From: Oscillospiraceae bacterium | Lineage (GTDB): Bacteria; Bacillota; Clostridia; Oscillospirales; Oscillospiraceae | Length of the DNA: 33,601 nt | Direction of reading: 5' to 3' | NCBI GenBank assembly: GCA_902783035.1 | Contig: CACZPK010000010.1 | Coordinates: 1 to 33,601 of the forward strand | Shown here: one piece after another, positions 18,539 through 33,601 of the stretch | How positions within the stretch are numbered: position 1 is the stretch's first letter | Layout of the letters: the number at the start of each line of letters is the position of its first letter | Made by a program: the position numbers and the translations under genes | Notes under the pieces: generated by a model | What the model was told of the DNA's origin: nothing | The model's database searches: none | Seen by the model: the letters and a program-made list of their open reading frames with translations, nothing else

Positions 18539-18931
18539 ATGACCATCACAACCTTTAACCCCATGATCCTTTCCAAAAACGCGGATGAGATCATCAAGCT
18601 GTTTGAGGAGCTTGGCTTTGAGCGCCGCCACAAGGTGGACAACATCAATGATGAGGACATTTCCAGCGTTCGCATGAGATACACCGGCGAGGATGGAAAA
18701 ACCTTCCACGTGGACGTGGCGCGGGTGGAATCCATGCCCCAGGACATGACCACCATGCGGATGAACGTTCGTGACTTTGATGAAGCCTACGAGTTCCTTA
18801 AAAGCCACGGCTTCAAAAACGCCCGTGCCGACGAGCATACGGTGGAGTCCAAATTCGCCAAATCCTGCCTGATGATCTCGCCCTCCGGCTTCTCCATCCA
18901 GCTTACCCAGCACATCAAGGACCACGATTGA
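18539..18931 (+). CDS. VOC-fold (glyoxalase-like) protein, copy 1 of 3
   Basis: A 130-residue protein with the single-domain pattern of the vicinal-oxygen-chelate superfamily: an opening TTFNPMILSKNADEIIKLFEELGFE strand-helix unit broken into short matching parts, then a HVDVARVE strand, MRMNVRDFDEAYEFL, and a closing MISPSGFSIQLTQHI strand. Copies 2 and 3 follow at once in the same orientation with clear similarity in every block. No obvious metal-ligand set (His/Glu in strands 1, 4, 5 and 8) is complete, so it may bind rather than transform a ligand. Substrate unknown. Confidence 0.75.
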   Translation: MTITTFNPMILSKNADEIIKLFEELGFERRHKVDNINDEDISSVRMRYTGEDGKTFHVDVARVESMPQDMTTMRMNVRDFDEAYEFLKSHGFKNARADEHTVESKFAKSCLMISPSGFSIQLTQHIKDHD

Positions 18932-18946
18932 CAGTGAGGTGAAAAT

Positions 18947-19336
18947 ATGAAAATAACGACCTTTGATCCGCTTATCATATCGCCCAAAGCGGATGATGTG
19001 ATGCAGGTATTTACGGCTCTGGGTTTTGAAAAGACCCATGCCCCGGTTACGCAAACTGAGAACGGTGAAGTTGCTAGCGTCCGCATGAAGGATGCCAACG
19101 GATTCCATGTGGATGTGGCAAGCCTTGACCGCGTACCGCAGGATATGACCTATATCCGCATGAATGTGGATAACTTCGAGGAGGCGTATAATATTCTGAT
19201 TGCCCACGGCTTCAAAAACACCAGAGGAGACGGAACCCTCGACACCAAGAGCGCCAAGGCCGCCACGATGGTATCTCCCTCGGGTTTTAAGATCAGCCTG
19301 ATTGAGCACATCAAAAAAACGATTGACAGAGGATAA
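18947..19336 (+). CDS. VOC-fold (glyoxalase-like) protein, copy 2 of 3
   Basis: A 129-residue paralogue of its neighbours, starting at ATG 18947 with GTGAGGTG upstream, 15 bases after copy 1. The matching blocks are TTFDPLIISPKADDVM, GFHVDVASLDRVPQDM, YIRMNVDNFEEAYNIL and MVSPSGFKISLIEHIKK. It differs from copy 1 by a longer, more polar loop after the first helix (HAPVTQTENGE). Tandem duplication is the simplest explanation. Confidence 0.75.
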   Translation: MKITTFDPLIISPKADDVMQVFTALGFEKTHAPVTQTENGEVASVRMKDANGFHVDVASLDRVPQDMTYIRMNVDNFEEAYNILIAHGFKNTRGDGTLDTKSAKAATMVSPSGFKISLIEHIKKTIDRG

Positions 19337-19342
19337 AACATC

Positions 19343-19717
19343 ATGAAGCTCACGACCTTTAACCCTCAAATCATCACGAAGGACGCGGAGGGTGTCGTTC
19401 AACTGTTTGAAGCGTTGGGCTTTGAGCGCCGCCACACCAAGGAGGAGATCGGTGAACTCGGTGTCACGGGCATCCGTATGAAGGACGCCAATGGCTTCTA
19501 TCTGGACATTTCCCAGAGTGATCGTCTGCCTGTGGACTGCATCCAGGCCATCCGTATGAACGTGGACGATTTCGACGAAGCCTATCGGCTGTTCACTGAC
19601 CGCGGCTTCAAAAACTTCTACGGGGATCGAGTGGTGGAAAACCCCACTTCCAGATCCGCCGTGATGATCGCGCCCTCCGGGTTTGTCATCAACCTAGTCC
19701 AGCATATCCGGAAATGA
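19343..19717 (+). CDS. VOC-fold (glyoxalase-like) protein, copy 3 of 3
   Basis: A 124-residue third paralogue, starting at ATG 19343 only 6 bases after copy 2, with AGAGGA as binding site. Blocks: TTFNPQIITKDAEGVV, LFEALGFERRHTKEEIG, FYLDISQSDRLP, IRMNVDDFDEAYRLF and MIAPSGFVINLVQHIRK. Its second strand has FYLDI in place of the FHVDV of the other two, so the His shared by copies 1 and 2 is lost. A hairpin follows at 19735-19779. Confidence 0.75.
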   Translation: MKLTTFNPQIITKDAEGVVQLFEALGFERRHTKEEIGELGVTGIRMKDANGFYLDISQSDRLPVDCIQAIRMNVDDFDEAYRLFTDRGFKNFYGDRVVENPTSRSAVMIAPSGFVINLVQHIRK

Positions 19718-20350: not shown

Positions 20351-20471
20351 GTCAGAGGATGCCGCCTACCATGGCCGTTTCCACGGAGGGCAAGGCATTG
20401 CTTACGACGTTTGCCAAGCTGCGCGGCAAGATGCAAAAAATGCTGGACTATAGAAAGGAATGGTCATAAAT

Positions 20472-21983
20472 ATGAAAAAGCTGAACAGTTTGCTCCTGGC
20501 GCTGGCTCTTTGCGTGAGCCTCGACATAGCGCCCGCACAGGCGATGGGGCTGGACGCGGCCTCTGCCGCGCCCGCAACGCGCGAAATGCTCTGCACCGCG
20601 CTCTGGGAGCGTGAGGGCAAGTCGGTCGTCAACTTTGCTCTGCCGTTCTCGGACGTCGCGCAAAACGCCGACTATGCCGAAGCTGTTCGCTGGGCGACGG
20701 CAGAGAAGATCGTGGGGGGCAACGGCGACGGAACGTTCCTGCCGGACGGTGCGCTTGACCGCGAGCAGCTGGCGACGGTCCTCTATCGTTACGCGCAGTA
20801 CCTCGGCGTGGACGTCTCGGTGGGCGAGAACACCAACATTCTGAGCTACATCGATTTTATGAATCGTTCCGACTGGGCGGTGAGCGCGCTCCAATGGGCG
20901 CTTGGCTCGGGCGTACTGGAGGAAAAGGGTGAGTTGCTGGACGCCTATGGCGCCGTCACGCAGGCAGAGGCTACCGCGGCTCTGGAACGATTCGACGCCT
21001 GGGCGATCCGCGCGGATCTGCTGGTCTCGTGGACGGAGAACGCACCGACAAAAGCAGCGCTTGTTGAGTATATGGCCGCTATCACGGACGAGGGCAGCGA
21101 GAGATACATTCCCGTAGAGGACCGTATCGCGGTGTTTGATCTGGACGGTACGCTGATGTGCGAGACATATCCGCGCTGCTTTGAGTACATGGTGTTCGTC
21201 GACTTTGTGCTCAACAACCCCAACTATACGCCGACGGACGAGGTCAAAGCGGTGGCGCAGGAGATTTTGGACACCAGATGGCAGGAGAAGCCCTCCGGCA
21301 TCAGCACACGGCAGGCCGCAGCGGCAGCGATCGCCTATCAGGGCATGACGCCCGCAGAGCTGGAGGCATATGTGAAGGGCTTTATGAACTCCGAAGCGGA
21401 GGGCTTCACCGGCCTCAAGCGCGGCGAGGCGTTTTACCTTCCGATGGTGGAGTTGGTGCGGTTTTTGGAAGCGAACGACTTCACCGTATACATTGTGACC
21501 GCGACGGAGCGCAACATCGTCCGTGCGCTGGTGAAGGATACGCTTGGCATCCCGCCCGCGCGGGTCATCGGGACGGAGTACGGCTGCACGGCCACAGGGC
21601 AGGGGGACGTCGAGGACGGCGACTACACCTTCCAGTCCACGGACGAGGTCGTGTTCGACGGGAGCTACTACGGCGAGAACGCCAAAATGTCCAAGGTGGA
21701 CGCAATCGTCCGTGAGATCGGACAACAGCCGGTGCTTGCCTTTGGCAACAGCTCGGGCGACGTGGCAATGTGCGAGTATGTGGTGACGAACAATCCCTAC
21801 GCCTCGCTCTCCTACATTGTGCTCGCGGACGACGAGGCGCGGGAGTGGGGCGATACTGAAGGCGCGCGCTCAAAGATTGCGGGCTATACCGCTCTCGGCA
21901 TCGGGACGATCTCCATGCGGGATGATTTCGCCACGATCTACGGCGACGGTGTGGAAAAGGACGTCGACGCGCCAAAAAAGTAA
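20472..21983 (+). CDS. Secreted SLH-domain / HAD-family phosphatase
   Basis: A 503-residue protein from ATG 20472 (MKKLNSLLLALAL); an ATG at 20460 abuts the AAAGGA site too closely. A signal peptide ends near PAQA. Residues about 55-190 contain two S-layer-homology repeats (LPFSDVAQNADYAEAVRWA, GNGDGTFLPDGALDREQL, YRYAQYLG; second: YIDFMNRSDWAVSALQWA). The C-terminal part is a HAD hydrolase with FDLDGTL (Asp223 and Asp225), TATERN as motif II and a late FGNSSGDVAM as motif IV. The SLH repeats should hold it on the cell-wall polymer, so the substrate is probably an external phosphomonoester. Between it and the MATE remnant a 36-codon frame (ending KEWS) is too weak to call. Confidence 0.8.
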   Translation: MKKLNSLLLALALCVSLDIAPAQAMGLDAASAAPATREMLCTALWEREGKSVVNFALPFSDVAQNADYAEAVRWATAEKIVGGNGDGTFLPDGALDREQLATVLYRYAQYLGVDVSVGENTNILSYIDFMNRSDWAVSALQWALGSGVLEEKGELLDAYGAVTQAEATAALERFDAWAIRADLLVSWTENAPTKAALVEYMAAITDEGSERYIPVEDRIAVFDLDGTLMCETYPRCFEYMVFVDFVLNNPNYTPTDEVKAVAQEILDTRWQEKPSGISTRQAAAAAIAYQGMTPAELEAYVKGFMNSEAEGFTGLKRGEAFYLPMVELVRFLEANDFTVYIVTATERNIVRALVKDTLGIPPARVIGTEYGCTATGQGDVEDGDYTFQSTDEVVFDGSYYGENAKMSKVDAIVREIGQQPVLAFGNSSGDVAMCEYVVTNNPYASLSYIVLADDEAREWGDTEGARSKIAGYTALGIGTISMRDDFATIYGDGVEKDVDAPKK

Positions 21984-22156
21984 AAAACCGGATGGATTTA
22001 CCGTTTTCGTGAGAGTGAGCCATTTGTCGGACTGCCGCGAATGAAACGGAAACGGTTACGCGAAGAGAATGCCCACTTCGCAGTCTCGCGCGTTGTGGAG
22101 CAAGAAGGGTCGAACTTTTTATGAACCGGAAAATCATTTTAAGGTGAGGCGTTAAG

Positions 22157-23425
22157 ATGGCAAGGTATGATTTTGATTCCTATACGCTTTATGAAATTAA
22201 AAAACAGAATGTGTATTCGGTAAAAATAAGAGTCATTCTGAAAGAGCGGGTGAATGGCGCGGTCCTTCAAACATCCGCCCAAAATGCGTTCAGACGTTTT
22301 CCGTATTATTGCAGAACGGTTGCTGTAAATCATGAGGGCGCGTTCATTCTCGAACCCTGTGATCAGCCGATTTCTGTCACGGAGGGGGATCGCGTGGTCA
22401 GGCTGGGAACGGAAGAAACAAACGGTCTTCTGTTTGCTGTTACTTATGAGGATAACAATATCTATTTCAGCTTTGCTCATAATTTTTGCGGCGGATGCGG
22501 CGCGATGCGATGGATCCAAGGCACCTTGTGGCAGTATTTGACGGATTTGGGGCATGACGTTGAGAAAACCGGCATTCTGACGGTTGATACGCCCCTCACA
22601 GCCGAAGAGCAGGCGGAGCCGGATGTTGCCTCCCTGCCTGACGGGGAACCGGTTGGCAATTTGAATTTTACAACGGATTCCTTCATGCCAAAAAATGATT
22701 ATATCGAACAAATGAAGGATCCGAATGGGATGAATGGCTACTATCCCATTATGATTCCAAAGGCGCAACTGATGAAATATGCGCACAACAACGACGGCAG
22801 TCCGAATTCAATCTTGGCCGCGATGCTGTTCAGAATGTATGTAAAAGTTTTACCCAACGAGAGCAAGTTTACAGCCGGAATCACGAACAACTACCGGGCG
22901 GACGTCGGTTGCCCCGATACATACCGGGACATGGTCCGGCAAATGTATGTGCAATATGACATCGGGATGAAGGACTGGTCTGTGGAAAAGCTGTCCACAG
23001 TTACGAGAAGCCGCATGTATATCCAAATGCAGCCGGAAATCAGCTGGGACAAATGCAGAAAGGTAGAGGAAATCCGCAGGCAGATAGACGCTCAGCCGAA
23101 TCTTGAAGCCAAAGCAAATTACGCATTTATCAACAGCCCTACCACCCACGGGATACCTTCGGCTTTTCATATCAGCTATGTGGGAAAGATCGAATGGGGC
23201 GGACTGGGTCCGTTCCTTGACGGGGTTTATTCGCTGACGTTCGGTCATCTTTTGATTGAGGTGAACGCGACGGAAGAGGATTTCTGCCTCAGCTTCCAGA
23301 CGGTTCGCAAAGACGGCAGATATTTGAAGGAATTCCTGCAGGCGCTTGACGAAGAAGAAATCGCGTATACTGTCGGGGACTTCGAGGACAGAAAGCTCCC
23401 TGAGATTGTATTGCCCGACGCATGA
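22157..23425 (+). CDS. Condensation/acyltransferase-like protein, first paralogue (HxxxD altered)
   Basis: A 422-residue protein from ATG 22157 with AAGGTGAGG upstream. Layout is that of the BAHD/PapA/condensation-domain superfamily: early substrate-pocket region, then the catalytic-motif position at residues 108-113, then a second lobe with TAGITNNYRADVG and a closing YVGKIEWGG strand. At the catalytic site it reads HNFCGG, so the Asp of HxxxDG is Gly112. The general-base His108 is kept. The next gene is a paralogue, with the same motif at the same residue number but intact (HGMTDG). It might be a divergent or non-catalytic partner. Known relatives transfer acyl groups from CoA or carrier proteins to alcohols or amines; the substrate is unknown. 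Confidence 0.7.
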   Translation: MARYDFDSYTLYEIKKQNVYSVKIRVILKERVNGAVLQTSAQNAFRRFPYYCRTVAVNHEGAFILEPCDQPISVTEGDRVVRLGTEETNGLLFAVTYEDNNIYFSFAHNFCGGCGAMRWIQGTLWQYLTDLGHDVEKTGILTVDTPLTAEEQAEPDVASLPDGEPVGNLNFTTDSFMPKNDYIEQMKDPNGMNGYYPIMIPKAQLMKYAHNNDGSPNSILAAMLFRMYVKVLPNESKFTAGITNNYRADVGCPDTYRDMVRQMYVQYDIGMKDWSVEKLSTVTRSRMYIQMQPEISWDKCRKVEEIRRQIDAQPNLEAKANYAFINSPTTHGIPSAFHISYVGKIEWGGLGPFLDGVYSLTFGHLLIEVNATEEDFCLSFQTVRKDGRYLKEFLQALDEEEIAYTVGDFEDRKLPEIVLPDA

Positions 23426-23442
23426 TTGGAAGGAGATACACC

Positions 23443-24715
23443 ATGGAACAGAGACTGTTTACGGAGCTGCGTCCGTTATATGTGACGAGCAAGGAAAGCC
23501 CCCATGACATTCGGCTCAGGATTCGTATGCGCGACCTGATCGACCCGGACATTCTTCGTCACGCAGTGGATACGACGATGCAGCGATACCCGTATTTCTG
23601 CGTTGAATTACAAAAAAAGGACGGGCAGTACATTTTTGCGGAAAACCCTCGTCCCGTGGTGGTTACCCATTCGCTTCACGGCGTGGCGCTGAATTCAGAG
23701 GATTCCAACTATCACATGATCGCGTTTTGCTGGCAGGACAACTGGATCATTCTGGATGTATTTCACGGCATGACGGACGGGACCGGCGCGTATGAAGTGG
23801 TGAGAACGCTGCTCTATTACTATTGTTCTGAACGGTATGACATTCATCTGACAGAAGAGGGCATTCGTCTGGCCGGGGACGAAATCTCCGCGGAAGAGTG
23901 GACCGACCCTGTGGCGGACAGAGCCGATCTTCCAGTCCCCAGACAGAATGAACAAATGTCCGACGCGCTGAATCTCATCGCTTCAGCGGGCCTTGAGGAG
24001 GATCACCGGCATACCGTATACAGCATCGCCATCTCTGAAACCGAGTTTATGAGATTTAATCTGGATAACGACGGCAGCCCGGGTACCATGGTATCTCTGC
24101 TGCTCAGCCGGTCCATTGCGAAGCTGTATCCGGAGGCAAGGGACATCCATCCGCATTACCCTGTGTGTGAACCAGAGAACGGCGCTTCATACGCCGCTGG
24201 CGCATCAGAGCCTGGTTGGCGGGGCTTTTCTGGAGTATAAGGACAAGATGCGCGATTGGCCCTTGGAAAAGCAGGCAACCGCTTACCGGGGAATGGTTTT
24301 TGCCCAGACCCAGGAGGAGAATGTGCTGATGGGCGTAGCCTCCATCAAGGGAATCGACGGCATGATCCTCTCAAAAGAGAGTGATCAGGAGCGGCTGGGG
24401 GTGGCAGCCTATATCAATGCCCTGGCGGCCAGAGTCGTCACGGCTACAGTGAGCTATGTGGGCAAGGCAAACTATCGGGAAGCCGAGCGGTATATCCGTG
24501 ATTTTCGGACGTGGACATCCTCCTCGGCCGATGGTCTGACCGTTGAAATATCGGCGGTAAACGGACGGTTTACCCTTGATTTTTTGCAGACGTTTTCAAG
24601 TCCAATCTTTGTAAATGCTTTCCTGAAGGAGCTGGAGGAGAACGGAATCGTGTATGACCTACAGGATGTCAATAAATTGGAGCTGGCGAATATCAAGCTC
24701 CCTTGGGCGGAGTAA
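23443..24715 (+). pseudogene. Condensation/acyltransferase-like paralogue with a frameshift
   Basis: ATG 23443 follows GGAAGGAG. The first frame runs to TAA at 24238-24240 and carries the intact HGMTDG motif at residues 108-113. From about 24140-24165 the homology moves to the next frame (ITLCVNQRTALHTPLAHQS, matching the TAGITNNYRADVG region of the paralogue) and continues to TAA at 24713-24715, ending ELANIKLPWAE against PEIVLPDA in the first paralogue. A net shift of one base would restore a protein of about 424 residues, the same length as its neighbour. Recent inactivation or a base error in the assembly are both possible; programmed shifting is unlikely because no slippery run is obvious. 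Confidence 0.75.
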
Positions 24716-24755
24716 CAAGGTATGATTACAAAACCATTATATGAGGAGCAGCAAA

Positions 24756-25871
24756 ATGAACAAGAAAGCGATCGGTATAATTGTCGCCGTCCTGCTCATT
24801 ATCGCCGGCGCAGTCGGCGGATACTTTGCGGGAAAAAGTACAGAAACCGCAAAGTATAAAGAAGCACAGGAGCTGAATATTGCACTGAGCAAAAGTGAGT
24901 TGGACGCTCTGGGAGAAATCGAGGGGCCAATCTATGTTACTGGGCACAAGAGCCCGGATGCGGATACGGTTGGAAGCTCAATTGCCTATGCGGAACTCCT
25001 TACAAAACTGGGATATGACGCCCGTCCGGTCGTGCTGGGAGAGATTAACAACGAGACGAAGTACATCCTTGAAGCGGCCGGTGTTGAGGCGCCTAAACTT
25101 CTGGAAGATGCATCCGGCTGTAAGATGGTTTTGGTTGACCACAGCGATTATGAGCAATCGGCGGAAGGCCTTCAAGACGCCCACATTATCAGCATCATAG
25201 ACCACCACGGAGATGGTTCCGTCCGAACTGGCAATCAGCTGATCTATGACGCAAGACCGCTTGGCGCAACGGCGACTATCATCTGGATGCGGTTCCGGAA
25301 CTATGGTTTGGAACCGGACAGGCAGACAGCCCATATCATGATCGGCTCGATCTTTTCTGATACCCATAACCTGGAGTATGATAGTGCGACCTTTGCGGAT
25401 AAGGAGGCGGTAAAGTCCTTGGCAAAACTGGCAGGTCTTACGGATCTTAGCTCCTTCTGGCAAGGCATGCACGCCGCCTCGCTTTCTTATGAAGGCATGA
25501 CGGATGAAGATGTTTTTTTCAACGATTATAAGGAATATGAATGCGCCGGCAAGAACTATGGGATCGGCTGCATGAAAGCTGTAAATGAGGAAGGCGCGCG
25601 GGATCTGGCGGAGCGCATGACGCAGGTGATGTCGGATGCGGTCGAGAGTACGGGAATGGATTTTGTTATTTCCCAGATCAGCATCGATGAAGGCGATGTT
25701 TCCATTACTTATTTTGTTCCGTCGAATGACATGGCAAAAGCCGTACTGGAGGATGCCTTTGGAGACGCAACGGAGTATGACGGGACATCTTTCATAATGA
25801 CACCGAGTGTTTCCAGAAAAGCGGTAGTCGTTCCGGCTATCACAGACGTGCTGAATGCATATCCGAGGTGA
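24756..25871 (+). CDS. Membrane-anchored family II inorganic pyrophosphatase-like DHH protein
   Basis: A 371-residue protein. ATG 24756 (MNKKAIGI) has GAGGAG 8 bases before it. A signal-anchor span (about 5-27) precedes a complete DHH/DHHA2 pyrophosphatase pattern: GHKSPDADTVGSS (His64, Asp68, Asp70), LVDHS (Asp128), IIDHHGDG (His150, His151), GSIFSDTHNL (Asp202) and a late SRKAVVVP. These match the metal and phosphate ligands of PpaC, which splits PPi to two phosphates. Soluble PpaC has about 310 residues and no anchor. Basic residues before the span predict an outside catalytic domain, which is unusual for this family. It lies 40 bases after the acyltransferase pair and before two MATE genes. 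Confidence 0.8.
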   Translation: MNKKAIGIIVAVLLIIAGAVGGYFAGKSTETAKYKEAQELNIALSKSELDALGEIEGPIYVTGHKSPDADTVGSSIAYAELLTKLGYDARPVVLGEINNETKYILEAAGVEAPKLLEDASGCKMVLVDHSDYEQSAEGLQDAHIISIIDHHGDGSVRTGNQLIYDARPLGATATIIWMRFRNYGLEPDRQTAHIMIGSIFSDTHNLEYDSATFADKEAVKSLAKLAGLTDLSSFWQGMHAASLSYEGMTDEDVFFNDYKEYECAGKNYGIGCMKAVNEEGARDLAERMTQVMSDAVESTGMDFVISQISIDEGDVSITYFVPSNDMAKAVLEDAFGDATEYDGTSFIMTPSVSRKAVVVPAITDVLNAYPR

Positions 25872-25923
25872 TTTGGCACTCATTTTCTTATCGGGGTGAA
25901 CTGCGGCTTTAGAAGCGACGAGG

Positions 25924-27387
25924 ATGAAGAATAAAATGAACAAATCAAAGGAAGCATCAAAAGGCACATGGCGCAGCAAAGCAAAAACGGTTTTCCTGGC
26001 CATGATCGCCGAGATCGATATGACGGTCTTGAACGTCATAAACATATTCGTTGTCAGCCGGTTTCTCGGTACGGACGGCGCGGCCGCCTATGAGGTCGTG
26101 ATGCCCTGCATCATGGTGGTTTGCGCGCTGATCGCAATGGGCTATAACGGCGTGCAGGCAGTCTGTGCCAAGGACTACGGCGCGAGGGATCTCGCTGCCT
26201 TTGAGCGCCACAAAAACGCCGGTTATACCTGGATGACCGTTGCTGTGGCGGCATTGACGCTCCTGTATGCCCTGTTCAAAGCCCCCCTGCTCGATCTGCT
26301 TGGCGCGAACGACGGGAGCGCGGCTCTGGCACGGTTCAGCGGGGAATGCTACTCAGCCTTCTTGTTTTTCTATCTCCCTCAGAGCCTGTTCAGCCTGGCA
26401 GTCTGCTTTCTGTTTCTGGAGGACCGCCGGCAGCTGTTGGTCACAAACCTGATTCTTTATGGGTGCATTCTGGCGGGCAATATCTTTGTCGCACTGACCC
26501 GACCGTCCATGACGGGGTTTATGGCGGTGAATGGGATCGGTACAGCCCTTGCGGACATATACGTGGTTCTGTACTGCCTGTTTGGTGGATCCGGCGGCTC
26601 AAGAGTGGCCGTTACCGCGATCAACCTGCGCTTCAAGGACATTCGGGAGGCGTTCTTTACGGGGCTGCCGGATTTTATGGAATACACTTTTGTGGCGATA
26701 TTGTACCTGGGTGAAAACCTTTATGTGCTTTCCCGGTTTTCGGAGTCTTTGATAGCGGGGATCGGCATCTTTGAAGCCATCGACAACCTGCCGGAGATCA
26801 TCTGCGTGGGCTTCTGTTTCCTCGTGACCGGCACGTTGGGAACAAAGGTTGGGAGACTGGTCGGCGCATCCTCCGGCGGAGAAACCGATGAAGCTGAAAA
26901 ATCGCTCGTCATTGCTGCGAAACAGCTCACAAAAGGCGGAACACTCGGTTCCCTGGCAGTGTCCGTAGTTCTGATCCTGACAGCCCGTCCGTTGGTTGGG
27001 CTCTTTATGGAAGGAGAGGACGCCGCCGCCATGAACAGCGCCGTCTTGCTCACGATATCCTGCGCCATCGGCTTCGTATTTTATATGCTCAATTCCGAAT
27101 TGGTTTGCTACTACAAGGTCGTGGGCGCATATATCCCGGCGCACATATTCTTCTTTGCGGAGGCGCTGCTGTTTCCGCTGGGCTTCAAGCTGCTGCTGGG
27201 TGAGTTGTTTGGCGTAATCGGCTTTTGCATGGGCGGCGCAGCCGGGGAGATCGCGGCTTTCCTTTTGAATCTGTGCATCGTCTGGCGGACGGCGGGACAT
27301 TTTCCCCGGAGACTATCGGATTTCCGCATGGAGCAATACCTTCAAAGGGCAGTTCAAAAGCACAGGATCAGTGAGGTGAGCAGATGA
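25924..27387 (+). CDS. MATE-family efflux transporter
   Basis: A 487-residue protein; ATG 25924 or the in-frame ATG 25936 may be the start, both after GACGAGG. About twelve hydrophobic segments in two lobes: opening IDMTVLNVINIFVVSRFLGTDGAAA, a first-lobe MGYNGVQAVCAKDYGARD (the usual G-x-x-x-x-[SC]-x-x-YGA motif of MATE), and a second lobe with VTGTLGTKVGRLVGASS. MATE proteins export drugs or metabolites against sodium or protons. The stop overlaps the start of the next MATE gene (ATGA, 27384-27387), so the two are co-translated and could work as a pair. Confidence 0.85.
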   Translation: MKNKMNKSKEASKGTWRSKAKTVFLAMIAEIDMTVLNVINIFVVSRFLGTDGAAAYEVVMPCIMVVCALIAMGYNGVQAVCAKDYGARDLAAFERHKNAGYTWMTVAVAALTLLYALFKAPLLDLLGANDGSAALARFSGECYSAFLFFYLPQSLFSLAVCFLFLEDRRQLLVTNLILYGCILAGNIFVALTRPSMTGFMAVNGIGTALADIYVVLYCLFGGSGGSRVAVTAINLRFKDIREAFFTGLPDFMEYTFVAILYLGENLYVLSRFSESLIAGIGIFEAIDNLPEIICVGFCFLVTGTLGTKVGRLVGASSGGETDEAEKSLVIAAKQLTKGGTLGSLAVSVVLILTARPLVGLFMEGEDAAAMNSAVLLTISCAIGFVFYMLNSELVCYYKVVGAYIPAHIFFFAEALLFPLGFKLLLGELFGVIGFCMGGAAGEIAAFLLNLCIVWRTAGHFPRRLSDFRMEQYLQRAVQKHRISEVSR

Positions 27388-29102
27388 AAAAATCAGGCTT
27401 TTGTGAGAGCAAATTTCGTTCCATGCTCCTTGCGGGCACGCTGACGTTGGCGGTCCTCTATATCATGCTCCTCTGCGATACCATCATCGCGGGTTATTAT
27501 ATCGGTGAGATGGGCGTTGCGGCAATCAACGCCGTCACGCCGGTAACGGGTATCGTGACCTTCTTCTCAACCGTCGTCGCCATTGGCTCCGGCATTCTCT
27601 ACAGCCGGGAGATCGGCGCGATGAACAAGCGCCGCGCGGATGAAATTTTCGGGCAGGGGCTGATCCTGAGCATCGCCATTGCCACGTTCAGCGCGTCGGC
27701 GCTGGCGCTTGGCAGGGAGGTTTATTTCCGGGCAAACGGCGTCACGGGCGAAATCTACGAGCTTGCCAGCGCTTACTATCGGTGGACGCCGCTGAACGCG
27801 GTGCTGAGCGTCACGGTCAACTACTTGACGCAGATGGTGTACACGGATGGGGATGAAACCTGCAATAACATCTCCTATGGCTGTCAGATCGGCGGAAACA
27901 TTGTTCTCTCGGTGCTTTTGGCGCGTTCCCTTGGCATGACCGGCATCATCCTCGGCACGATCATCGGAAATGTCCTCGGCCTTCTGGCAATCTGCTGGCA
28001 TTTTTTCAAGAAAAGCAACACGCTTCATTTTGCCTGGCATCTTTCCTGGAAGGATCTGCTGGATAGCGTGCGGTTCAGCATCGTGGATGCGGCGATTTAT
28101 CTCTGCTGGGCTGTGATGGATTACGTGATGATTGGCCATATTTCCGTTCGGTACGGCGAGACAGGTCTGGTCACGCTTGCCGTGGTCATCAGCGTCATAG
28201 AGTTCAGCGTTGTGATGGATGGTGTTGGAATGGCCGTCAAACCGCTTTTGGGAACCTATCTCGGAGAGAAAAATCATGTGCTGATCCGGCGGCTCATGCG
28301 CGCGGCTGCGAAAGCAGCGCTGATTGAGGGCTTGATCGCGAATGCGCTGGTGTTTGTCTTCGCAAAACAGTTTTGCGCTTTGTTCGGCATCGCCGAAGGC
28401 GCGGCCCTGTTGCCGTCTATCCATGCGGTTCGCATCGTTTCGCTTGGCATGACGTTTTGCAGTGCGTTTTCACTGACCACCTCTTACTATATGCTGGTGA
28501 ATCATGTGGGGCTGTCTGTCGCCATTACGGTGCTCAAGGATGGATTGCTGTATTCCACTCTGCCGCTGCTCACCTCGGTGCTTTTCGGAGAAACCGGTAT
28601 GTGGGCGGCCTTTGCCGTCACGCCGGCTCTGGCTTTGGCGCTGTCGTTACTGTTTGTCCGGCTTCATTACGGGGCGGCGCAATTTCCCTATTTGCTGGAG
28701 AATACAGATACGAAAATCATTGTTTTGGACGATACGCTGACAAAGAATAGCTGCGTGCGTCTTTCGGAACAGGTGCAGGCGGTTATGGAGGAGCAAGGCT
28801 ATTCAGCTCGCGTGGCAAATCGTGCCGCGCTGTTCACGGAAGAGATCGGCTTGACGATTCTCGAGAAAAATGCGGCAGAGAAAAAAGCAATTCTGACAGA
28901 AATATCACTGCTTTTTGAGGATAACTCTGTGCTGTTGATCGAACGTGATTCCGGTAAAATATTCGATCTTACCGACCCGGATCAAGCAATCGCCGGCCTC
29001 AGCAGCTTTATTCTCAGCGGTCTGATGGAAGCCCACAAGGAAAAGGCATACCTCACGACAACAGGTTATAATCGAAATATGATGAGGTTTTTACAGCAAT
29101 AA
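27384..29102 (+). CDS. MATE transporter fused to a C-terminal RsbW-like ATPase domain
   Basis: A 572-residue protein. Residues about 1-430 are a MATE transporter (LLCDTIIAGYYIGEMGVAAIN, SGILYSREIGAMNK, second-lobe PLLGTYLGEKN). Residues about 440-572 form a soluble cytoplasmic domain resembling anti-sigma kinases of the RsbW/SpoIIAB (HATPase) type: ALFTEEIGLTILEKNA in place of the N-box, LLIERDSGKIFDL in place of the D-x-G-x-G box, and a closing TGYNRNMMRFL. The N-box Asn and the second Gly are missing, so nucleotide binding may be weak or lost. A STAS protein is encoded 2 kb downstream in the same direction. Inference: the STAS protein docks on this domain and controls transport. Confidence 0.8.
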   Translation: MKKSGFCESKFRSMLLAGTLTLAVLYIMLLCDTIIAGYYIGEMGVAAINAVTPVTGIVTFFSTVVAIGSGILYSREIGAMNKRRADEIFGQGLILSIAIATFSASALALGREVYFRANGVTGEIYELASAYYRWTPLNAVLSVTVNYLTQMVYTDGDETCNNISYGCQIGGNIVLSVLLARSLGMTGIILGTIIGNVLGLLAICWHFFKKSNTLHFAWHLSWKDLLDSVRFSIVDAAIYLCWAVMDYVMIGHISVRYGETGLVTLAVVISVIEFSVVMDGVGMAVKPLLGTYLGEKNHVLIRRLMRAAAKAALIEGLIANALVFVFAKQFCALFGIAEGAALLPSIHAVRIVSLGMTFCSAFSLTTSYYMLVNHVGLSVAITVLKDGLLYSTLPLLTSVLFGETGMWAAFAVTPALALALSLLFVRLHYGAAQFPYLLENTDTKIIVLDDTLTKNSCVRLSEQVQAVMEEQGYSARVANRAALFTEEIGLTILEKNAAEKKAILTEISLLFEDNSVLLIERDSGKIFDLTDPDQAIAGLSSFILSGLMEAHKEKAYLTTTGYNRNMMRFLQQ

Positions 29103-29232
29103 GCGAGTGAAAGGCAAAACAAGCGGCAAATCAGGCAGACGGAGCCTGCAATCCCACAGCATCTGTCATTTATAGCGGAAAATGATCCAGGAGCGTTATG
29201 CATCCGCGGAATATCAGGAGGAGGCTATTACT

Positions 29233-30543
29233 TTGAGGAAGATTATAGGTATTGTCTTGCTTATAAGCGTTGTCCTGGGATTATGTTCTTGCGGAAAGAG
29301 CATAAAGAAGGATGAAGGCTCAGAAACAAAATCCGTTGAAAATCAGGAAATAACATTGAATTTGGCCACCTTTGGAGAAAGAAACGGTAAATATTCGGGG
29401 GAGATGCTAAATGATCTCCCTCAGGGATTTGGAAAGTTTGAATCTCAAAACTCCGAGGGCACCGGCTGGGTTTATGAGGGGGAATGGGTTAGCGGCCAGT
29501 TTCACGGAGAAGGCTATTTGTATTGGCCTTCAAACGGACAGAAATATGAAGGTACATATCGCGACTCTGATTTGATAAAAGGAAAATGCTATATCAGAGA
29601 CACCCTTACCTATAAAGGTGATTTTACTTCGTATACTTTCGATGGCACAGGCACTTTTTATAATCACAAGGGTGAAGCGGTTTATACAGGTCCGTTCACA
29701 GCTGGGGCCCCGAGTGATCTGGATACCTTTATCGCTGCGACAAGGGATATTCATTACGATGACTATGCAAAGGACATCACAACGTATCGTGCCGATCCCA
29801 TTAGATTTACAGGGAGTATTATTCAGCTTTGGGAGGACGATGGTTCCGGCGTCCGTAACTATGTAGTGAGCTTGGATGATTCAAATGAACAATTACTCTT
29901 CGTTTACGACTATCGAATGAGACTGGGACTGGATGTAGAACTTCAGGAATCAGATATCATAACAGGGTATGGACTCACGACGGCTGCTTTTACATATGAA
30001 TCAAAATCAGGTACAAGCGTTACATCCCCTGCAGTTTTAACTTTTTTCGTAGAATCTCAAAACACCTGGGGAACCGATTCGCTTTATGAGGGAGAATTGG
30101 CTAAAGGTCTGGCCTGCTACTACGGCACAGAAACAGGAATCGCTGACTTTGATAAGGCGGAAGCTGCCTTCCAGACTGCGGCGGACGCCGGTGTTGCGGA
30201 CGCTTGGTACTATCTTGGGCGGATCGCCTATCAGCGCAGCGACTATCAGAATGCCGCCGCTTTCTTTGAAACAGGCGCGGAGCAGGGCAGCGAGCTTGCA
30301 CGCTTCAATCTTGGAATGTTGTATGAAAACGGGGAGGGTCTGCGTCTGGATCTGGACGTGGATTATGAAAAAGCAAGGGAGCTCTTTCAGGAGGCCGTGG
30401 ATCACGGCTGCATCGAGGCCAACTGCGGTCTTGGGGATATATACCAGAACGGCTACGGCGTCGAGGCGGACAACGCCCGTGCGCTTGAATACTTCCTCCT
30501 CGCCGCGGAGTCGAACGACCCGGAGTGGGCTCCCTATGCCTAG
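29233..30543 (+). CDS. Lipoprotein with MORN and Sel1-like repeats, ends at an in-frame TAG
   Basis: TTG 29233 is preferred as start (LRKIIGIVLLI) because AGGAGGAGG precedes it; upstream codons have no site. The lipobox is LCSC, so the protein is lipid-anchored outside. Residues about 45-160 hold MORN repeats (YSGEMLNDLPQGFGKF, YEGEWVSGQFHGEGYLYWP, YKGDFTSYTFDGTGTFY). A beta-rich middle (about 165-290) is not recognised. Sel1-like alpha repeats follow (AAFQTAADAGVADAWYYLG, ARFNLGMLYENGEG, ANCGLGDIYQNGYGVEADN). TAG at 30541-30543 stops it in the middle of a repeat, and the same frame continues with more Sel1 repeats. Likely a scaffold for assembling envelope partners. Intact length would be 597 codons. 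Confidence 0.75.
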   Translation: MRKIIGIVLLISVVLGLCSCGKSIKKDEGSETKSVENQEITLNLATFGERNGKYSGEMLNDLPQGFGKFESQNSEGTGWVYEGEWVSGQFHGEGYLYWPSNGQKYEGTYRDSDLIKGKCYIRDTLTYKGDFTSYTFDGTGTFYNHKGEAVYTGPFTAGAPSDLDTFIAATRDIHYDDYAKDITTYRADPIRFTGSIIQLWEDDGSGVRNYVVSLDDSNEQLLFVYDYRMRLGLDVELQESDIITGYGLTTAAFTYESKSGTSVTSPAVLTFFVESQNTWGTDSLYEGELAKGLACYYGTETGIADFDKAEAAFQTAADAGVADAWYYLGRIAYQRSDYQNAAAFFETGAEQGSELARFNLGMLYENGEGLRLDLDVDYEKARELFQEAVDHGCIEANCGLGDIYQNGYGVEADNARALEYFLLAAESNDPEWAPYA

Positions 30544-30569
30544 CTGAGCGTCTGTGAGGCGTCGCTCAG
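30541..30569 (+). promoter_or_regulatory. In-frame TAG followed directly by a short stem-loop
   Basis: TAG (30541-30543) is followed immediately by CTGAGCG (30544-30550), which pairs perfectly with CGCTCAG (30563-30569) around a 12-base loop. The reading frame is open on both sides of TAG with continuous Sel1-repeat content. A structure next to a stop could favour read-through or be chance; a simple nonsense mutation explains the TAG equally well. Confidence 0.4.
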
Positions 30570-31026
30570 TGCAGAGGCCGTTGAACCGGACGGCGGGCAG
30601 CCCGACGACTGGAAAGAGAAGTTCCTGGAAGGCGAAACGGCGCTTGCCGAGGCCGGGCTTCCCAAGGCCAGTTTCTTTTTAGCATTCTATTATTATAACG
30701 GCAGCGTCGACGAGCCGGATTATGCCACGGCGATGACCTGGTTCCGGAAAGCGGCTGAGGCCGGGGACGCGAGATCGATGTATTTTATCGCATACATGTA
30801 CAGCAAGGGGCTCGGCGTCGAGGAAAATCAGGAAGAGAGTATGAATTGGTATCTGAAATCCGCGGAAGCCGGATACCTGTCCTCAATGTACAATGTCGGC
30901 AGGCGCTATGAACTTGGCAATGGTGTCGAGCGGAATACCGAAAAGGCAATCGAATGGTACCAAAAAGCAGCCAAAGCCGGCAACAAGAAAGCCGCAGAAC
31001 GTCTGGCCGAGCTGACTGGGACCTGA
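30544..31026 (+). pseudogene. C-terminal Sel1 repeats of the lipoprotein, after the in-frame TAG
   Basis: 160 codons in the same frame as the upstream lipoprotein, to TGA at 31024-31026. It contains at least three Sel1 repeats: ASFFLAFYYYNGSVDEPDYATA, MTWFRKAAEAGDARSMYFIA broken at the usual helix turns, SMNWYLKSAEAGYLSSMYNVG, and AIEWYQKAAKAGNKKAAERL. Codon quality is as good as upstream, so it has not been drifting for long. Without read-through it would need its own start, and none with a binding site is seen near its beginning (the first ATG is at 30733). Confidence 0.65.
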
Positions 31027-31097
31027 TTCTTATCCCCAATAATCGAAGAATGCATAATTGTTGAAAAAAAGACGGTATTGAAAGAGAAAGGAGACGC

Positions 31098-31397
31098 ATG
31101 ATGAACATTGTGAAAAAACAAGACGGGAGCAGGCTGACATTGGCGTTGGAGGACAGACTCGACATGACGACCGCGCCGGAGCTGGAAAAGGAGGTCTCCA
31201 CCTCCTTGCCCGGCGTAACGGAGCTTGTATTTGACCTCAAGACGCTGGAGTACATCTCCTCCGCCGGATTGCGCGTGTTGCCCTCCGCGCAGAAGATGAT
31301 GAACAAGCAGGGCAGCATGGTCATCCGCAACGTGAACGAGAACATCATGGAGGTTTTCGACTTCACCGGTGTCATCGACATCCTGACTATCGAGTGA
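31098..31397 (+). CDS. STAS-domain anti-sigma factor antagonist-like protein
   Basis: A 99-residue protein from ATG 31098 (or 31101), after AAAGGAGACG. It is a complete single STAS domain like SpoIIAA/RsbV: MNIVKKQDGSRLTLALEDRLD, then LVFDLKTLEYISSAGLRVL with the phospho-acceptor Ser of the ISSAGLR motif, and a closing DFTGVIDILTIE. In classical partner switches the unphosphorylated form binds an RsbW-type kinase. No sigma factor or separate RsbW gene is seen here, but the upstream MATE fusion carries an RsbW-like domain. The stop overlaps the amidohydrolase start (TGATG), so the two are translationally coupled. Confidence 0.85.
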   Translation: MMNIVKKQDGSRLTLALEDRLDMTTAPELEKEVSTSLPGVTELVFDLKTLEYISSAGLRVLPSAQKMMNKQGSMVIRNVNENIMEVFDFTGVIDILTIE

Positions 31398-33016
31398 TGA
31401 GACCTGATACTTGTCGACAGACGGAAACCGCATTCTATAACGGTAGGATATACACCGCGGATGAGGCGTTTCCCTTTGCGCGCTCGTTTGTCGTACGCGA
31501 CGGAAGGTTTGCTTCGGTCGGGGACGACACGGCTGCGCAGGTCTGCGCGCACCGGGTTGATCTCGGCGGGCGTTGTGTAATCCCGGGGCTGGTGGATTCG
31601 CACTGCCACATTCTCAGCGGCTTGCAGCGCGCGGCGATGAACCTGATCAAGCTGGACGAGGGGACAAAGCCAGAGACGCTGGCCGCAGCGCTCCTCGCGC
31701 GCGCGAAATCGGAGGGCGACGGCGTGCTCAGCGCAATGGGCATCAATCTGACGCAGGGTGCGTTTTCCGCCCGCGACCTTGACGGCGCGTTCCCGGCGCG
31801 CCCGGTGCTGGTGTTCAGCTTTGACGGCCACGCGCTGCTGCTCAACCACCGGGCGATGGAGCTGCTGCATATTGACAGGGACACCGAAGACCCGGACGAG
31901 AACAGTTACTTTGTCCGGGACGGGAATGGCGAGCCGACGGGGCTGGTGATTGAAATTCCCGCAATGATGCGCTGCCGCGCATTAGTGGATGCCGAGGGCG
32001 CGGCATCGGAGGAGACGCTGAGCGGGCTGTTGGACGCATACGCAGCGCTGGGCTATACCACGGTTTTCGACGCTATGTCAGCGGACGGCGAGACGGCGGA
32101 TGTCTTCCCACTGCTGCGGGACTTTGCCCAAGCCGGACGGATGTCGTTGCGACTGTCCGCCAGCTTTTGCTACCACGGCGAAGCGTACATCGAGCCGGGC
32201 GAGGCGCTGGAGCAGCTGCGCGCGCTGCGGCGCTCCTGCGGCTTTGCCGATTTACGCGCGGACACGCTCAAGCTCATCACCGACGGCACGGTGGAGGAGC
32301 GCTCCGCGCTGCTCTCCGCGCCTTACGCAGATCAGCCAGGGTACCGGGGCAGTGCGCTCATTGACCCGGCGGACATGATGCGCATGGCGCGCCTCGCCAC
32401 GGAGGACGGTTTCCATATCCACATCCACGCCATCGGCGACCTCGCAGTCAGCCGCGCGCTGGACACGCTCTGCGCGTTGGGGAAGACGTCGGGGACGAAG
32501 ACCATCGCCCACAACCAGCTCTATCGCCCGGAGGACGTTGCGCGCATCGCCCGAGCCGGGGATATTTTCTTCCAGACCACGCCGCATTGGGTGACGGCGG
32601 ACGACTACACGCTCGCGCGGCTTGGGGAGGAGCGCTATGCCCGCCAGTTCCCGGTCGGCACGATGCGGAGACACGGCGTGACCGTCAGCTTTGGCAGCGA
32701 CACCTATCTGGACGAGCCGCTCGCAAACGCCTTTGCGGGGATGTATTGCGCCGTCGCCCGCGGGGATGCCGGACTGTACCCGCCTAAGGACGAAGGCATC
32801 TCCCGCGCTTCGGCGCTCGCCGCCTACACGATTGCGGGGGCGCGGCAGCTCGGCTGGGGGGACGAGACCGGAAGCATCACTGCGGGGAAGTCCGCAGACT
32901 TCGCGGTGCTGGATCGGGACGTGATGACCTGCCCGCTTGACGAACTGGCGCGGACGCAGGTTCGGGAAACATGGTTCCACGGAAACGTGGTCTACAGGAA
33001 GTCAGACAAATTATAA
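31397..33016 (+). CDS. YtcJ-like metal-dependent amidohydrolase
   Basis: A 539-residue protein; ATG 31397 shares a base with the STAS stop (a GTG three bases earlier is possible). It shows the amidohydrolase superfamily layout: an N-terminal beta domain (YNGRIYTADEAFPFARSF), VDSHCHILSG with metal ligands His69 and His71, LKLITDGTVEERSA for the bridging Lys, a HIHAIGD ligand pair, a later AHNQL, and SFGSDTYLDEP with the catalytic Asp. The C-terminal AGKSADFAVLDRD strand is typical of YtcJ/Amidohydro_3 proteins. It has no signal peptide, so it is cytoplasmic. Relatives cleave N-acyl or N-formyl amides. The neighbouring GH3 gene forms amides, suggesting synthesis and hydrolysis of the same bond. 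Confidence 0.85.
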   Translation: MRPDTCRQTETAFYNGRIYTADEAFPFARSFVVRDGRFASVGDDTAAQVCAHRVDLGGRCVIPGLVDSHCHILSGLQRAAMNLIKLDEGTKPETLAAALLARAKSEGDGVLSAMGINLTQGAFSARDLDGAFPARPVLVFSFDGHALLLNHRAMELLHIDRDTEDPDENSYFVRDGNGEPTGLVIEIPAMMRCRALVDAEGAASEETLSGLLDAYAALGYTTVFDAMSADGETADVFPLLRDFAQAGRMSLRLSASFCYHGEAYIEPGEALEQLRALRRSCGFADLRADTLKLITDGTVEERSALLSAPYADQPGYRGSALIDPADMMRMARLATEDGFHIHIHAIGDLAVSRALDTLCALGKTSGTKTIAHNQLYRPEDVARIARAGDIFFQTTPHWVTADDYTLARLGEERYARQFPVGTMRRHGVTVSFGSDTYLDEPLANAFAGMYCAVARGDAGLYPPKDEGISRASALAAYTIAGARQLGWGDETGSITAGKSADFAVLDRDVMTCPLDELARTQVRETWFHGNVVYRKSDKL

Positions 33017-33034
33017 CATAGGAGGAAACGTAAC

Positions 33035-33601
33035 ATGAACCAAACTTATCTTGCTTATGAACAGAACTCAGGGCTTGGGCTGGAAGCGTGGCATGACTTT
33101 CTGGAGCGGGAGACCGTCGAGCCGATGACCTGCACGACGGCGTTGCTGATGAAGCTGCTGGACGACAACAAAGACACAGTGTACGGGCGCAAGTACGGCT
33201 TCGCGGAAATCCACAGTGTCGAGGACTATCAAAAGCGCGTGCCCGTCGTCACCTACGACGAACTCGCACCGTACATCGAGCGCATGGCAAATGGCGAGCG
33301 GAACATCCTCACGGCCTATCCATACAGCCACTTCAACGAGACCTCCGGCACCGTGGGCGCGCCGAAACTGATTCCCATGTCTGATCCGCAGTCGGACGTA
33401 TTCGGAAAGTACAACAACCTCATCATGTATGGCATTATGCGCGAGCAGCTCGATCCCGACTGGATGGAAGGGCGCGGCTTCTGCACCTCCAGCGGCAACT
33501 GCCGCACGCTGGAAAGCGGCCTGACCGTGGGCGAAGCATCTGCAAAGATGGCGGACTACATCAAGGGCGGCAAGGACGCGCTGGACAAGATGGTGCGCAC
33601 G
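33035..33601 (+). CDS. GH3-family acyl-adenylating / amide-forming enzyme, N-terminal part
   Basis: The first 189 codons of a gene running off the window, with ATG 33035 after GGAGGA. The sequence matches GH3 proteins, bacterial relatives of plant enzymes that join acids to amino acids: YGRKYGFAEIHSVEDYQKRVP, then PYIERMANGERNILTAYP, and HFNETSGTVGAPKLIPMS, where TSGT is the phosphate-binding motif 1 for ATP. Plant GH3 enzymes activate a carboxylate as acyl-AMP, releasing PPi, then form an amide. It lies 18 bases downstream of the amidohydrolase and is in the same transcript. The substrate of bacterial members is not known to me. Confidence 0.8.
   Translation, partial: MNQTYLAYEQNSGLGLEAWHDFLERETVEPMTCTTALLMKLLDDNKDTVYGRKYGFAEIHSVEDYQKRVPVVTYDELAPYIERMANGERNILTAYPYSHFNETSGTVGAPKLIPMSDPQSDVFGKYNNLIMYGIMREQLDPDWMEGRGFCTSSGNCRTLESGLTVGEASAKMADYIKGGKDALDKMVRT

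Follow-up and report, generated by a model that had tools for sequence, protein, structure and literature searches.

In partner switching, a HATPase of the RsbW type phosphorylates a STAS protein, and a SpoIIE-type PP2C phosphatase removes the phosphate. GH3 enzymes form an acyl-AMP and then an amide, and MATE proteins are exporters, often multidrug exporters. Members of several of these families lie together near the 3' end of the stretch of DNA analysed here (the window), which is the entire contig C10, 33,601 nucleotides long, of an Oscillospiraceae metagenome-assembled genome (MAG) with a completeness of 85%. There, a MATE transporter (MATE1), a MATE transporter carrying a C-terminal RsbW-like domain (MATE2), a STAS protein, a YtcJ-type amidohydrolase (YtcJ), and the N-terminal part of a GH3 acyl-acid amido synthetase are encoded. 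These genes are best read as one version of a recurring, switch-controlled system of acyl-amide metabolism and transport, a reading given a probability of about 0.6. It draws on the recurrence of the genes, protein fusions, the fold of the MATE2 tail, motif loss, and a conserved STAS serine, all of which were computed.

Closest Described Systems

The nearest tested prokaryotic GH3 found is OlsH, the GH3-type lyso-ornithine lipid synthetase of Singulisphaera acidiphila (PMC12493201). Like the enzyme proposed here, OlsH is a prokaryotic GH3 that makes an N-acyl amino acid with ATP; unlike it, OlsH sits with OlsG and OlsI, and the portions of that paper drawn on here mention no partner switching. 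The same portions state that gut Clostridia have N-acyl amino acids and that the functions of other bacterial GH3 proteins are open (PMC12493201). Plant GH3 proteins (JAR1, GH3-1, and GH3.12) show a sequence relationship over their full length, and the GH3 profile matches plant amido synthetases at E values down to 2.4e-90. Plant GH3 enzymes are opposed by amide hydrolases, and we know of none with a fused HATPase or STAS domain or in an operon with MATE or STAS.

The regulatory genes resemble the RsbU-RsbV-RsbW and SpoIIE-SpoIIAA-SpoIIAB systems in having a STAS protein with a conserved serine, the HATPase kinase fold, and a PP2C-type phosphatase. They differ in that the transporter bears a mostly degenerate HATPase domain and that archaeal GH3 proteins are fused to a kinase or to STAS. 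The STAS domains of SulP/SLC26 sulfate transporters and MlaB also act at a membrane transporter. There, STAS belongs to the transporter, whereas here the transporter carries the RsbW-like domain, the usual partner of STAS. A paper on SypA and SypE of Vibrio fischeri, in the portions used here, notes the occurrence of STAS domains in sulfate transporters and describes a STAS protein as downstream effector under kinase and phosphatase control; unlike the present case, the output is biofilm formation, and those portions mention no transporter or enzyme fusion (PMC10120452). Among the open-access matches listed, in the text that they made available, none dealt with a MATE-RsbW fusion or linked partner switching to the GH3 proteins of Clostridia or archaea.

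Recurrence of the Gene Set around GH3

The survey comprised the best 80 of 176 GH3 relatives from one scan of a named genome collection. The scan query was an alignment of eight GH3 proteins from relatives, and some of these seeds recur among the 80 loci, which by title are mostly from rumen or gut Bacillota, with Actinomycetota, Treponema, Bacteroidales-labelled MAGs, and methanogens besides. Neighbouring genes were found with hidden Markov models (HMMs), built from sequences seeded by Pfam-checked matches and run on stop-to-stop open reading frames (ORFs). Such frames were used since codon-based gene calls missed genes in AT-rich genomes, including GH3 itself at 4 of the 80 loci.

Counted in bins of 2.5 kb from GH3 (covering 334, 249, 216, and 180 kb), the YtcJ ORFs number 22, 0, 0, and 0 and the STAS genes 21, 3, 1, and 4. 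The corresponding series are 9/4/3/1 for PP2C, 10/5/2/0 for HATPase, 6/5/2/0 for MATE, 5/2/0/0 for MATE::HATPase fusions, and 2/1/0/0 for acyltransferases, so that all YtcJ frames lie within 2.5 kb and all MATE::HATPase fusions within 5 kb. STAS, PP2C, and HATPase genes together amount to 52 within 5 kb (583 kb) versus 10 between 5 and 10 kb (396 kb). Binomial comparison of these two distances, for loci that are not independent, gives p values of 1e-5 for YtcJ, 3e-5 for any STAS/PP2C/HATPase gene, 0.007 for STAS, 0.011 for HATPase, and 0.026 for MATE::HATPase. Expressed as loci with the gene within 5 kb, YtcJ is found at 20 of the 80, STAS at 22, PP2C and HATPase at 13 each, MATE at 10, MATE::HATPase at 7, an acyltransferase at 3, and any STAS/PP2C/HATPase gene at 27. 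The 15 HATPase genes within 5 kb of GH3 compare with about 1.6 expected from a density that was taken from the window's own genome and 59 relatives, and thus from other organisms and with other thresholds than the 80 loci. The associations of GH3 with YtcJ, STAS, and MATE::HATPase thus exceed chance and recur elsewhere. The serine motif of STAS is present in 73 of the 77 STAS domains of the loci scanned.

The GH3 tree places almost all YtcJ neighbours in one clade (L159 lies outside it) and partner-switching neighbours in several main parts, with others devoid of them. The tree was built quickly; its branches are long, and 19 of its forks are weak. GH3 pieces matching fewer than 1200 bases were left out of it, and rows with both YtcJ and partner-switching genes are not counted in its YtcJ group.

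Several layouts resemble that of the window. Locus L182 has STAS-YtcJ-GH3, exactly the window order, and L112 has STAS-GH3-YtcJ. L110 and L111 read GH3-YtcJ-acyltransferase, the acyltransferase with an HxxxDG motif. In [Clostridium] aminophilum DSM 10710 (L114), a MATE::HATPase, a Mur-ligase-like gene, YtcJ, and GH3 are followed later by PP2C, and in L141 STAS, GH3, MATE::HATPase, and an acyltransferase precede HATPase and PP2C. L119 reads MATE, MATE::HATPase, PP2C, STAS, HATPase, GH3; its first gene stands directly before the fusion, as MATE1 stands before MATE2, and is no close relative of MATE1. At L129, GH3 is followed by a MATE protein 63% identical to MATE2 and cut by the contig end. The same genome (G586, titled Lachnospiraceae, to which L218 and L219 belong) has another GH3 locus, L219, with STAS, MATE::HATPase, GH3, PP2C, HATPase, STAS, MATE::HATPase, and STAS. 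Combinations of GH3, YtcJ, STAS, and MATE::HATPase thus recur, as a search for this gene order in other genomes had been expected to reveal (L182, L129, L119), and because of this recurrence GH3 and MATE are not confined to unrelated contexts elsewhere.

MATE2 itself has orthologs in G021 (75% identity) and in G039, G352, G356, and G564 (61–63%); a search at E <= 1e-60 matched 5 of 295 genomes, its own included. A STAS gene adjoins the ortholog in G021, the one in G564 stands among many switch genes, and a PP2C gene lies no more than about 3.5 kb from those in G352 and G039; on the stretch fetched from G356, no partner-switching gene was shown nearby.

The RsbW-Like Domain of the Transporter

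The MATE2 tail matches no Pfam family at E <= 1, HATPase_c_2 included. Its predicted model (pLDDT 70.5) nonetheless best matches Bacillus subtilis RsbW in Foldseek (6m37_C, E 7.2e-6, probability 1.00) and also SpoIIAB (1tid_A, E 8.7e-6), so the RsbW-like fusion first read from the sequence is borne out by the predicted fold. The tail aligns with canonical HATPase tails. In hhalign, its subfamily reaches E 1.7e-10 against canonical MATE-fused domains and 2.2e-6 against HATPases that are not MATE-fused, versus 0.17 and 0.4 for the STAS and PP2C controls.

A comparison of ATP-site motifs separates the transporter-borne domains from the others. The N-box Asn is intact in all 34 HATPases that stand alone or share a protein with PP2C, STAS, or GH3, and 33 of these 34 also have both the G1 Asp and the G1 Gly. 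Among MATE-fused HATPases, the N-box Asn is kept in 17 of 38, and Asn with the G1 Asp and Gly in only 9 of 37 complete domains. The set comprised 72 distinct HATPase domains (75 found, with those under 95 amino acids and identical copies dropped) plus the window tail added by hand; the MATE-fused part has 10 archaeal and 28 bacterial members, L169 being cut by the contig end and excluded for G1/G2, and the tail of the G021 ortholog (L029), uncalled by the HMM, is absent. The contrast has a Fisher p of 4e-11, computed with 9/38, a value that overstates independence because the sequences are related. In the MATE2 tail, the N-box Asn is replaced by Thr and the second G2 Gly by Ser, with the G1 Asp and Gly and the first G2 Gly kept; the same Thr is found in L030, L204, and L205, orthologs 61–63% identical to MATE2. 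At 20 loci, a MATE-fused domain occurs alongside another HATPase.

Since the ATP site is mostly lost, the MATE-fused domain looks like a receptor, and the motif pattern supports a division of labour in which the kinase would lie elsewhere and the docking site on the transporter; the 9 of 37 domains that keep the motifs could still be kinases. Partner-switch control at the transporter, as originally proposed, gains support from the fusions and from this motif loss.

Fourteen further MATE::HATPase regions of related genomes (L187–L200), among 17 regions fetched, show how general the module is. STAS, PP2C, or a separate HATPase adjoins the fusion in eight of them (L187–L190, L192, L196–L198), five have no adjoining partner-switching genes, and L193 has spoIIAB-like and sigma-factor-like genes beside it by eye. 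A recurrent form that is free of GH3 consists of STAS and MATE::HATPase followed by PP2C and HATPase, separate or fused (L188, L189, L190, L192).

Other arrangements of the same domains were seen in passing. Transporters of the SDF dicarboxylate type lie next to STAS/HATPase genes in L100 (12319-13965) and L197 (6623-8218); their first ~130 residues may be a degenerate RsbW-like domain (hhalign probability 83%, E 9e-6), which would make them a second fused transporter class. Pfam identifies STAS-APH-HATPase_c_2 in L100 (10709-12268) and STAS-APH in L104 (12499-13674), and the HMMs find STAS and HATPase in single ORFs in L198, L203, and L205. In L190 (4347-9935), from G013 of the window's genus, a STAS-STAS-MATE::HATPase-PP2C-HATPase module adjoins four small genes sharing a leader-like KEGVELPDE and a 463-amino-acid gene; by eye, this may be a cluster for a ribosomally synthesized and post-translationally modified peptide under the same kind of switch.

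Archaeal Loci and GH3 Fusions

The STAS::GH3 protein of L169, from a record titled Methanobacteriaceae archaeon, was used as a query (E <= 1e-20) against 138 genomes of its family, and GH3 was found in 18. STAS adjoins GH3 in 16 of these 18 (the exceptions are G608 and G619); on the stretches fetched, some from short contigs, MATE::HATPase is seen in 10 and PP2C in 11. Four archaeal GH3 proteins (L224, L225, L227, L230) end in HATPase_c_2 (Pfam 53–57 bits, cut-off 27.4). They are 712–720 amino acids long and mutually 79–95% identical, and therefore probably derive from one fusion event. Their loci contain MATE::HATPase, STAS, and GH3::HATPase, with two PP2C genes beside. In L169, a single ORF contains STAS, GH3, GH3_M, and GH3_C, all above the Pfam cut-off; as only one MAG contig has it, a sequence error that removed a stop may account for the fusion. 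STAS and GH3 of G582 and other genomes share a frame with stops between them. Methanobrevibacter cuticularis DSM 11139 (L147), a strain and not a MAG, has STAS, GH3, GH3, and MATE::HATPase.

A Proposed Model for Switch-Controlled Acyl-Amide Transport

From these features we infer how the genes might act jointly, on which substrate, in which direction of transport, and by what phosphorylation and docking. GH3 would activate a carboxylic acid with ATP and couple it to an amine that is probably an amino acid. YtcJ would hydrolyse the same or a related amide, giving a make-and-break pair, and a MATE protein would carry the product, putatively an exported acyl-amide, across the membrane. An intact HATPase kinase would phosphorylate the conserved serine of the STAS protein, a SpoIIE-type PP2C would take the phosphate off, and STAS would dock on the RsbW-like MATE tail, which would be a receptor without a kinase role. 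At other loci, the kinase and PP2C are encoded nearby, or a kinase or STAS domain is fused to GH3. In the genome of the window, they would be supplied by other loci, such as the STAS-PP2C-HATPase set that the same genome has in trans on contig C27 (L201).

A narrower and quite tentative form of this model casts partner switching as a phosphorylation-controlled clamp between enzyme and transporter. STAS, free or fused to GH3 as in L169, would bind the mostly dead MATE tail, and a sensor PP2C together with a kinase, either separate or part of the GH3 protein as in L224, would link synthesis to export or unlink them, in bacteria and archaea alike and without sigma factors. If the general model holds, partner switching extends from sigma control to the direct control of transporters and enzymes, a role is suggested for the RsbW-like genes of archaea, and the little-studied GH3 enzymes of gut anaerobes gain a context; N-acyl amino acids or related amides reaching the host may come from these enzymes. 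Such loci occur in cultured Methanobrevibacter cuticularis DSM 11139, [Clostridium] aminophilum DSM 10710, and Acetobacterium tundrae DSM 9173, and the model is therefore testable.

Gene Content of the Window

The named genes, collected in the table below, are all annotated on the same strand from 22157 to the contig end, and overlaps of 4 nt join three pairs (ACT1/ACT2, MATE1/MATE2, and STAS/YtcJ), in agreement with the co-directional, partly overlapping arrangement that had been described. Pfam families above cut-off in the window are DHH/DHHA2, MatE (twice), Sel1 with MORN, STAS, Amidohydro_3, and GH3.

Features of the 3' part of the window, in positions of the whole 33,601-nucleotide stretch
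Feature	Position	Strand	Evidence and membership
ACT1, condensation/PapA-like acyltransferase	22157..23425	+	Foldseek from weak model; membership doubtful
ACT2, acyltransferase broken by frameshift	23422..24715 (ORFs 23422-24240, 24116-24715)	+	Membership doubtful
DHH/DHHA2 Mn-pyrophosphatase-like protein, hydrophobic N-terminal stretch	24741..25871	+	PF01368, PF02833; membership not supported
MATE1, second MATE transporter	25924..27387	+	MatE E 3e-10, 40.5 bits (cut-off 24.9); probable member
MATE2, MATE with C-terminal RsbW/SpoIIAB-like domain (residues ~430-572)	27384..29102	+	MatE E 2.6e-19, 69.9 bits
MORN/Sel1 lipoprotein, in-frame TAG at 30541-30543	29182..31026	+	Pfam; membership not supported
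STAS anti-anti-sigma-type protein, Ser motif ISSAGL	31098..31397	+	PF01740 E 2.4e-12; TIGR00377 above cut-off
YtcJ-type amidohydrolase (Amidohydro_3)	31394..33016	+	PF07969 E 1.3e-74
GH3 acyl-acid amido synthetase, N-terminal part, cut by contig end	33035..33601	+	PF03321 E 6.6e-39

YtcJ is full-length, matching profile positions 3–472 of 472 in Amidohydro_3 with 252.8 bits, above the cut-off, and contains DSHCH and HIHIHAIGD, which we take to be metal-ligand motifs. GH3 is represented by its first 189 codons (PF03321 134.4 bits, cut-off 23.6). Two other contigs of the genome, C103 and C96, both start with the last 87 bases of C10, and the assembly probably broke at the end of C10 because of this shared stretch. 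C103 has a long GH3 remainder, and the remainder on C96 has an internal deletion. The window contains the motif TSGTVGAPK, and ASEG and YRMSD lie on C103; all three are presumably ATP-binding motifs of GH3. An assignment of the window GH3 to OlsH was rejected, the fragment scoring 41.8 bits with NF052613 against an equivalog cut-off of 620; the GH3 proteins of five relatives score 44.1–72.6 bits with the same model.

Within the family of the window, GH3 is patchy. Matches occur in 4 of 60 relatives, strong ones in the own genome, G003, and G007, and a draw of 300 family genomes gave GH3 above cut-off in 14, with 6 besides the own genome at E < 1e-40. G007, of the same genus, has a related GH3 (71% over 167 residues). 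Among the eight GH3 loci first read in relatives, those of G140, G187, G178, and G097 have partner-switching genes and that of G007 has YtcJ.

The idea of one locus comprising every gene from 22157 on found no support. For ACT1 and the first ACT2 piece there is no Pfam match, and a PDB sequence search with the acyltransferases gave none. The ACT1 model is weak (pLDDT 52, TM ~0.27), though all 50 listed Foldseek matches belong by title to the condensation/PapA5-type superfamily. ACT1 fails the HxxxDG motif of that superfamily, having HNFCGG at this position with the His kept, and the frameshifted ACT2, both pieces of which match the same homologs, has HGMTDG. ACT1-like proteins were matched in 74 of 300 genomes of the family. 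An acyltransferase lies within 5 kb of GH3 at only three of the 80 loci (L110, L111, L141), and GH3 appears in none of 19 acyltransferase neighbourhoods fetched from other genomes; the membership of ACT1 and ACT2 was accordingly left doubtful. The pyrophosphatase-like protein, which scores 240.6 bits with PRK05427 of NCBIfam, under the cut-off of 283, was rejected as a member on present evidence, with no homolog at E <= 1e-6 in the 80 GH3 loci. The same was done for the lipoprotein, whose frame stays open to 31026 after the TAG and which has a homolog at one of the 80 loci (L121). The original prediction is thus partly supported, its core being right and wider than stated and its locus boundaries looser.

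Weighing the Alternatives

The frequency of switch genes and MATE fusions in gut Clostridia raises the question of whether the window is a patchwork of unrelated genes brought together by chance. HATPase_c_2 matches occur in 60 of 60 genomes, and in the archaeal family in 92 of 138, where presence or absence per genome was dropped as a test for that reason. The complete window order, a part of the prediction that was not supported, was repeated in no other locus found, and at other loci GH3 seldom or never has the acyltransferases, pyrophosphatase, or lipoprotein as neighbours. MATE::HATPase modules also exist without GH3, and none of the five further MATE2 orthologs has GH3 on the stretches fetched; GH3 would therefore be one of several partners of a general switch-controlled transporter module. 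Other results weigh against a joint system as well. Enrichment near GH3 is not clear for MATE alone (p 0.054) or PP2C alone (p 0.12). Within 5 kb, 40 of the 80 loci lack YtcJ and partner-switching genes alike, and the GH3 loci of G003, G088, and G257 also have neither. Sequence extends for 3 kb to either side of GH3 at only 40 of the 80; within that distance, a switch gene is present at 15 of these loci, a MATE::HATPase at 4, and YtcJ at 8. In the window itself, the Pfam scan of proteins from 20460 to 33601 shows no kinase HATPase or PP2C family. Against chance stand the distance gradient, with YtcJ at 22/0/0/0, the fusions of GH3 with HATPase and with STAS, the presence of the same set in archaea, and the return of the STAS-YtcJ-GH3 order in L182. 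Chance is already unlikely for GH3-YtcJ and GH3-STAS, and as a reading of the window it is very improbable.

Ordinary partner switching, in which STAS, HATPase, and PP2C control a sigma factor or transcription and MATE and GH3 are merely nearby, fares little better and is also judged improbable. Archaea, which to our knowledge lack bacterial sigma factors, have the set too; MATE and GH3 proteins themselves carry fused RsbW-like domains, and the ATP site is mostly lost in the MATE-fused domains. A sigma factor is the textbook output of such switches (PMC11619594, in the part cited), and at L193 the fusion lies beside spoIIAB-like and sigma-like genes; it is the only locus where a sigma-like gene was noticed beside a MATE::HATPase module, sigma genes not having been searched for. 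The genes may, on the other hand, serve detoxification and not biosynthesis. GH3 would then conjugate harmful aromatic or branched rumen acids to amino acids for MATE export, with YtcJ recycling the conjugates. NCBIfam names fit MATE proteins as multidrug exporters, a role known from general background, and many survey records are titled rumen or gut. The names of PDB matches and the consulted part of PMC10747189 have plant GH3 enzymes conjugating acids to amino acids. Product synthesis is, however, suggested by some other GH3 loci, which between them contain an ABC exporter as well as ATP-grasp, RimK-like, and AMP-binding/Condensation genes, and OlsH, a tested bacterial GH3, makes N-acyl ornithine (PMC12493201). 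Detoxification is a possible but rather unlikely purpose. Somewhat less likely still is that the window copy is a decaying remnant that no longer works. The ACT2 frameshift and the lipoprotein stop would fit decay, as would the internal deletion on C96 and a second, shortened YtcJ-GH3 pair, in which YtcJ is short and GH3 is cut; this pair lies at the end of contig C78 (76% over 279 residues and 85% over 115 residues relative to the window). This second pair also speaks against the proposed system, as does the fit of the 87-base overlap to both C103 and C96, by which the halves of the window GH3 are not pairable. Open frames with key motifs are nevertheless seen for STAS, MATE2, YtcJ, and as much of GH3 as the window contains, the breaks could stem from MAG assembly errors, and the N-box Thr of the MATE2 tail is shared with L030, L204, and L205.

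Further Observations

Paired GH3 genes were noticed in L146, L147, L163, L173, L168, L180, L185, L223, L226, L228, L229, and L236. The first seven have one canonical and one divergent copy; on the quick tree the latter cluster together, a grouping that could be an artefact of long branches. Near GH3 in L163 (11657-15171), L174 (2273-8098), and L148 (8653-15880) lie ABC exporter-like genes and ATP-grasp and RimK-like ligases, with an AMP-binding/PP-binding/Condensation protein also among these loci. One ABC protein, three ligases, and the AMP-binding protein were checked and the other ABC genes were read by eye; these loci are possible clusters for peptide-like products.

Relatives of the acyltransferases were seen in other contexts. 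In the own genome, contig C97 (L094, 1651-5521) has a 662-amino-acid gene, AMP-binding by eye, followed by two ACT1/ACT2-related acyltransferase-like genes, possibly a second acyl-transfer locus. L085 (2-6961) has a tandem array of six paralogs that are nearly identical at the N-terminus and differ at the C-terminus; near them lie an acyltransferase, a STAS gene, and an 847-amino-acid gene ending in a HATPase motif by eye.

Upstream in the window, a secreted-looking protein (20460-21983) has an S-layer homology domain and then a HAD hydrolase domain by Pfam. Three tandem paralogs of about 125 amino acids (18539-19717) are VOC/glyoxalase-like by eye, and relatives of them lie downstream of GH3 in L114 and L109. 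A gene of 492–508 amino acids is likewise downstream of GH3 in these two loci and has a relative on C103 of the own genome, both by eye.

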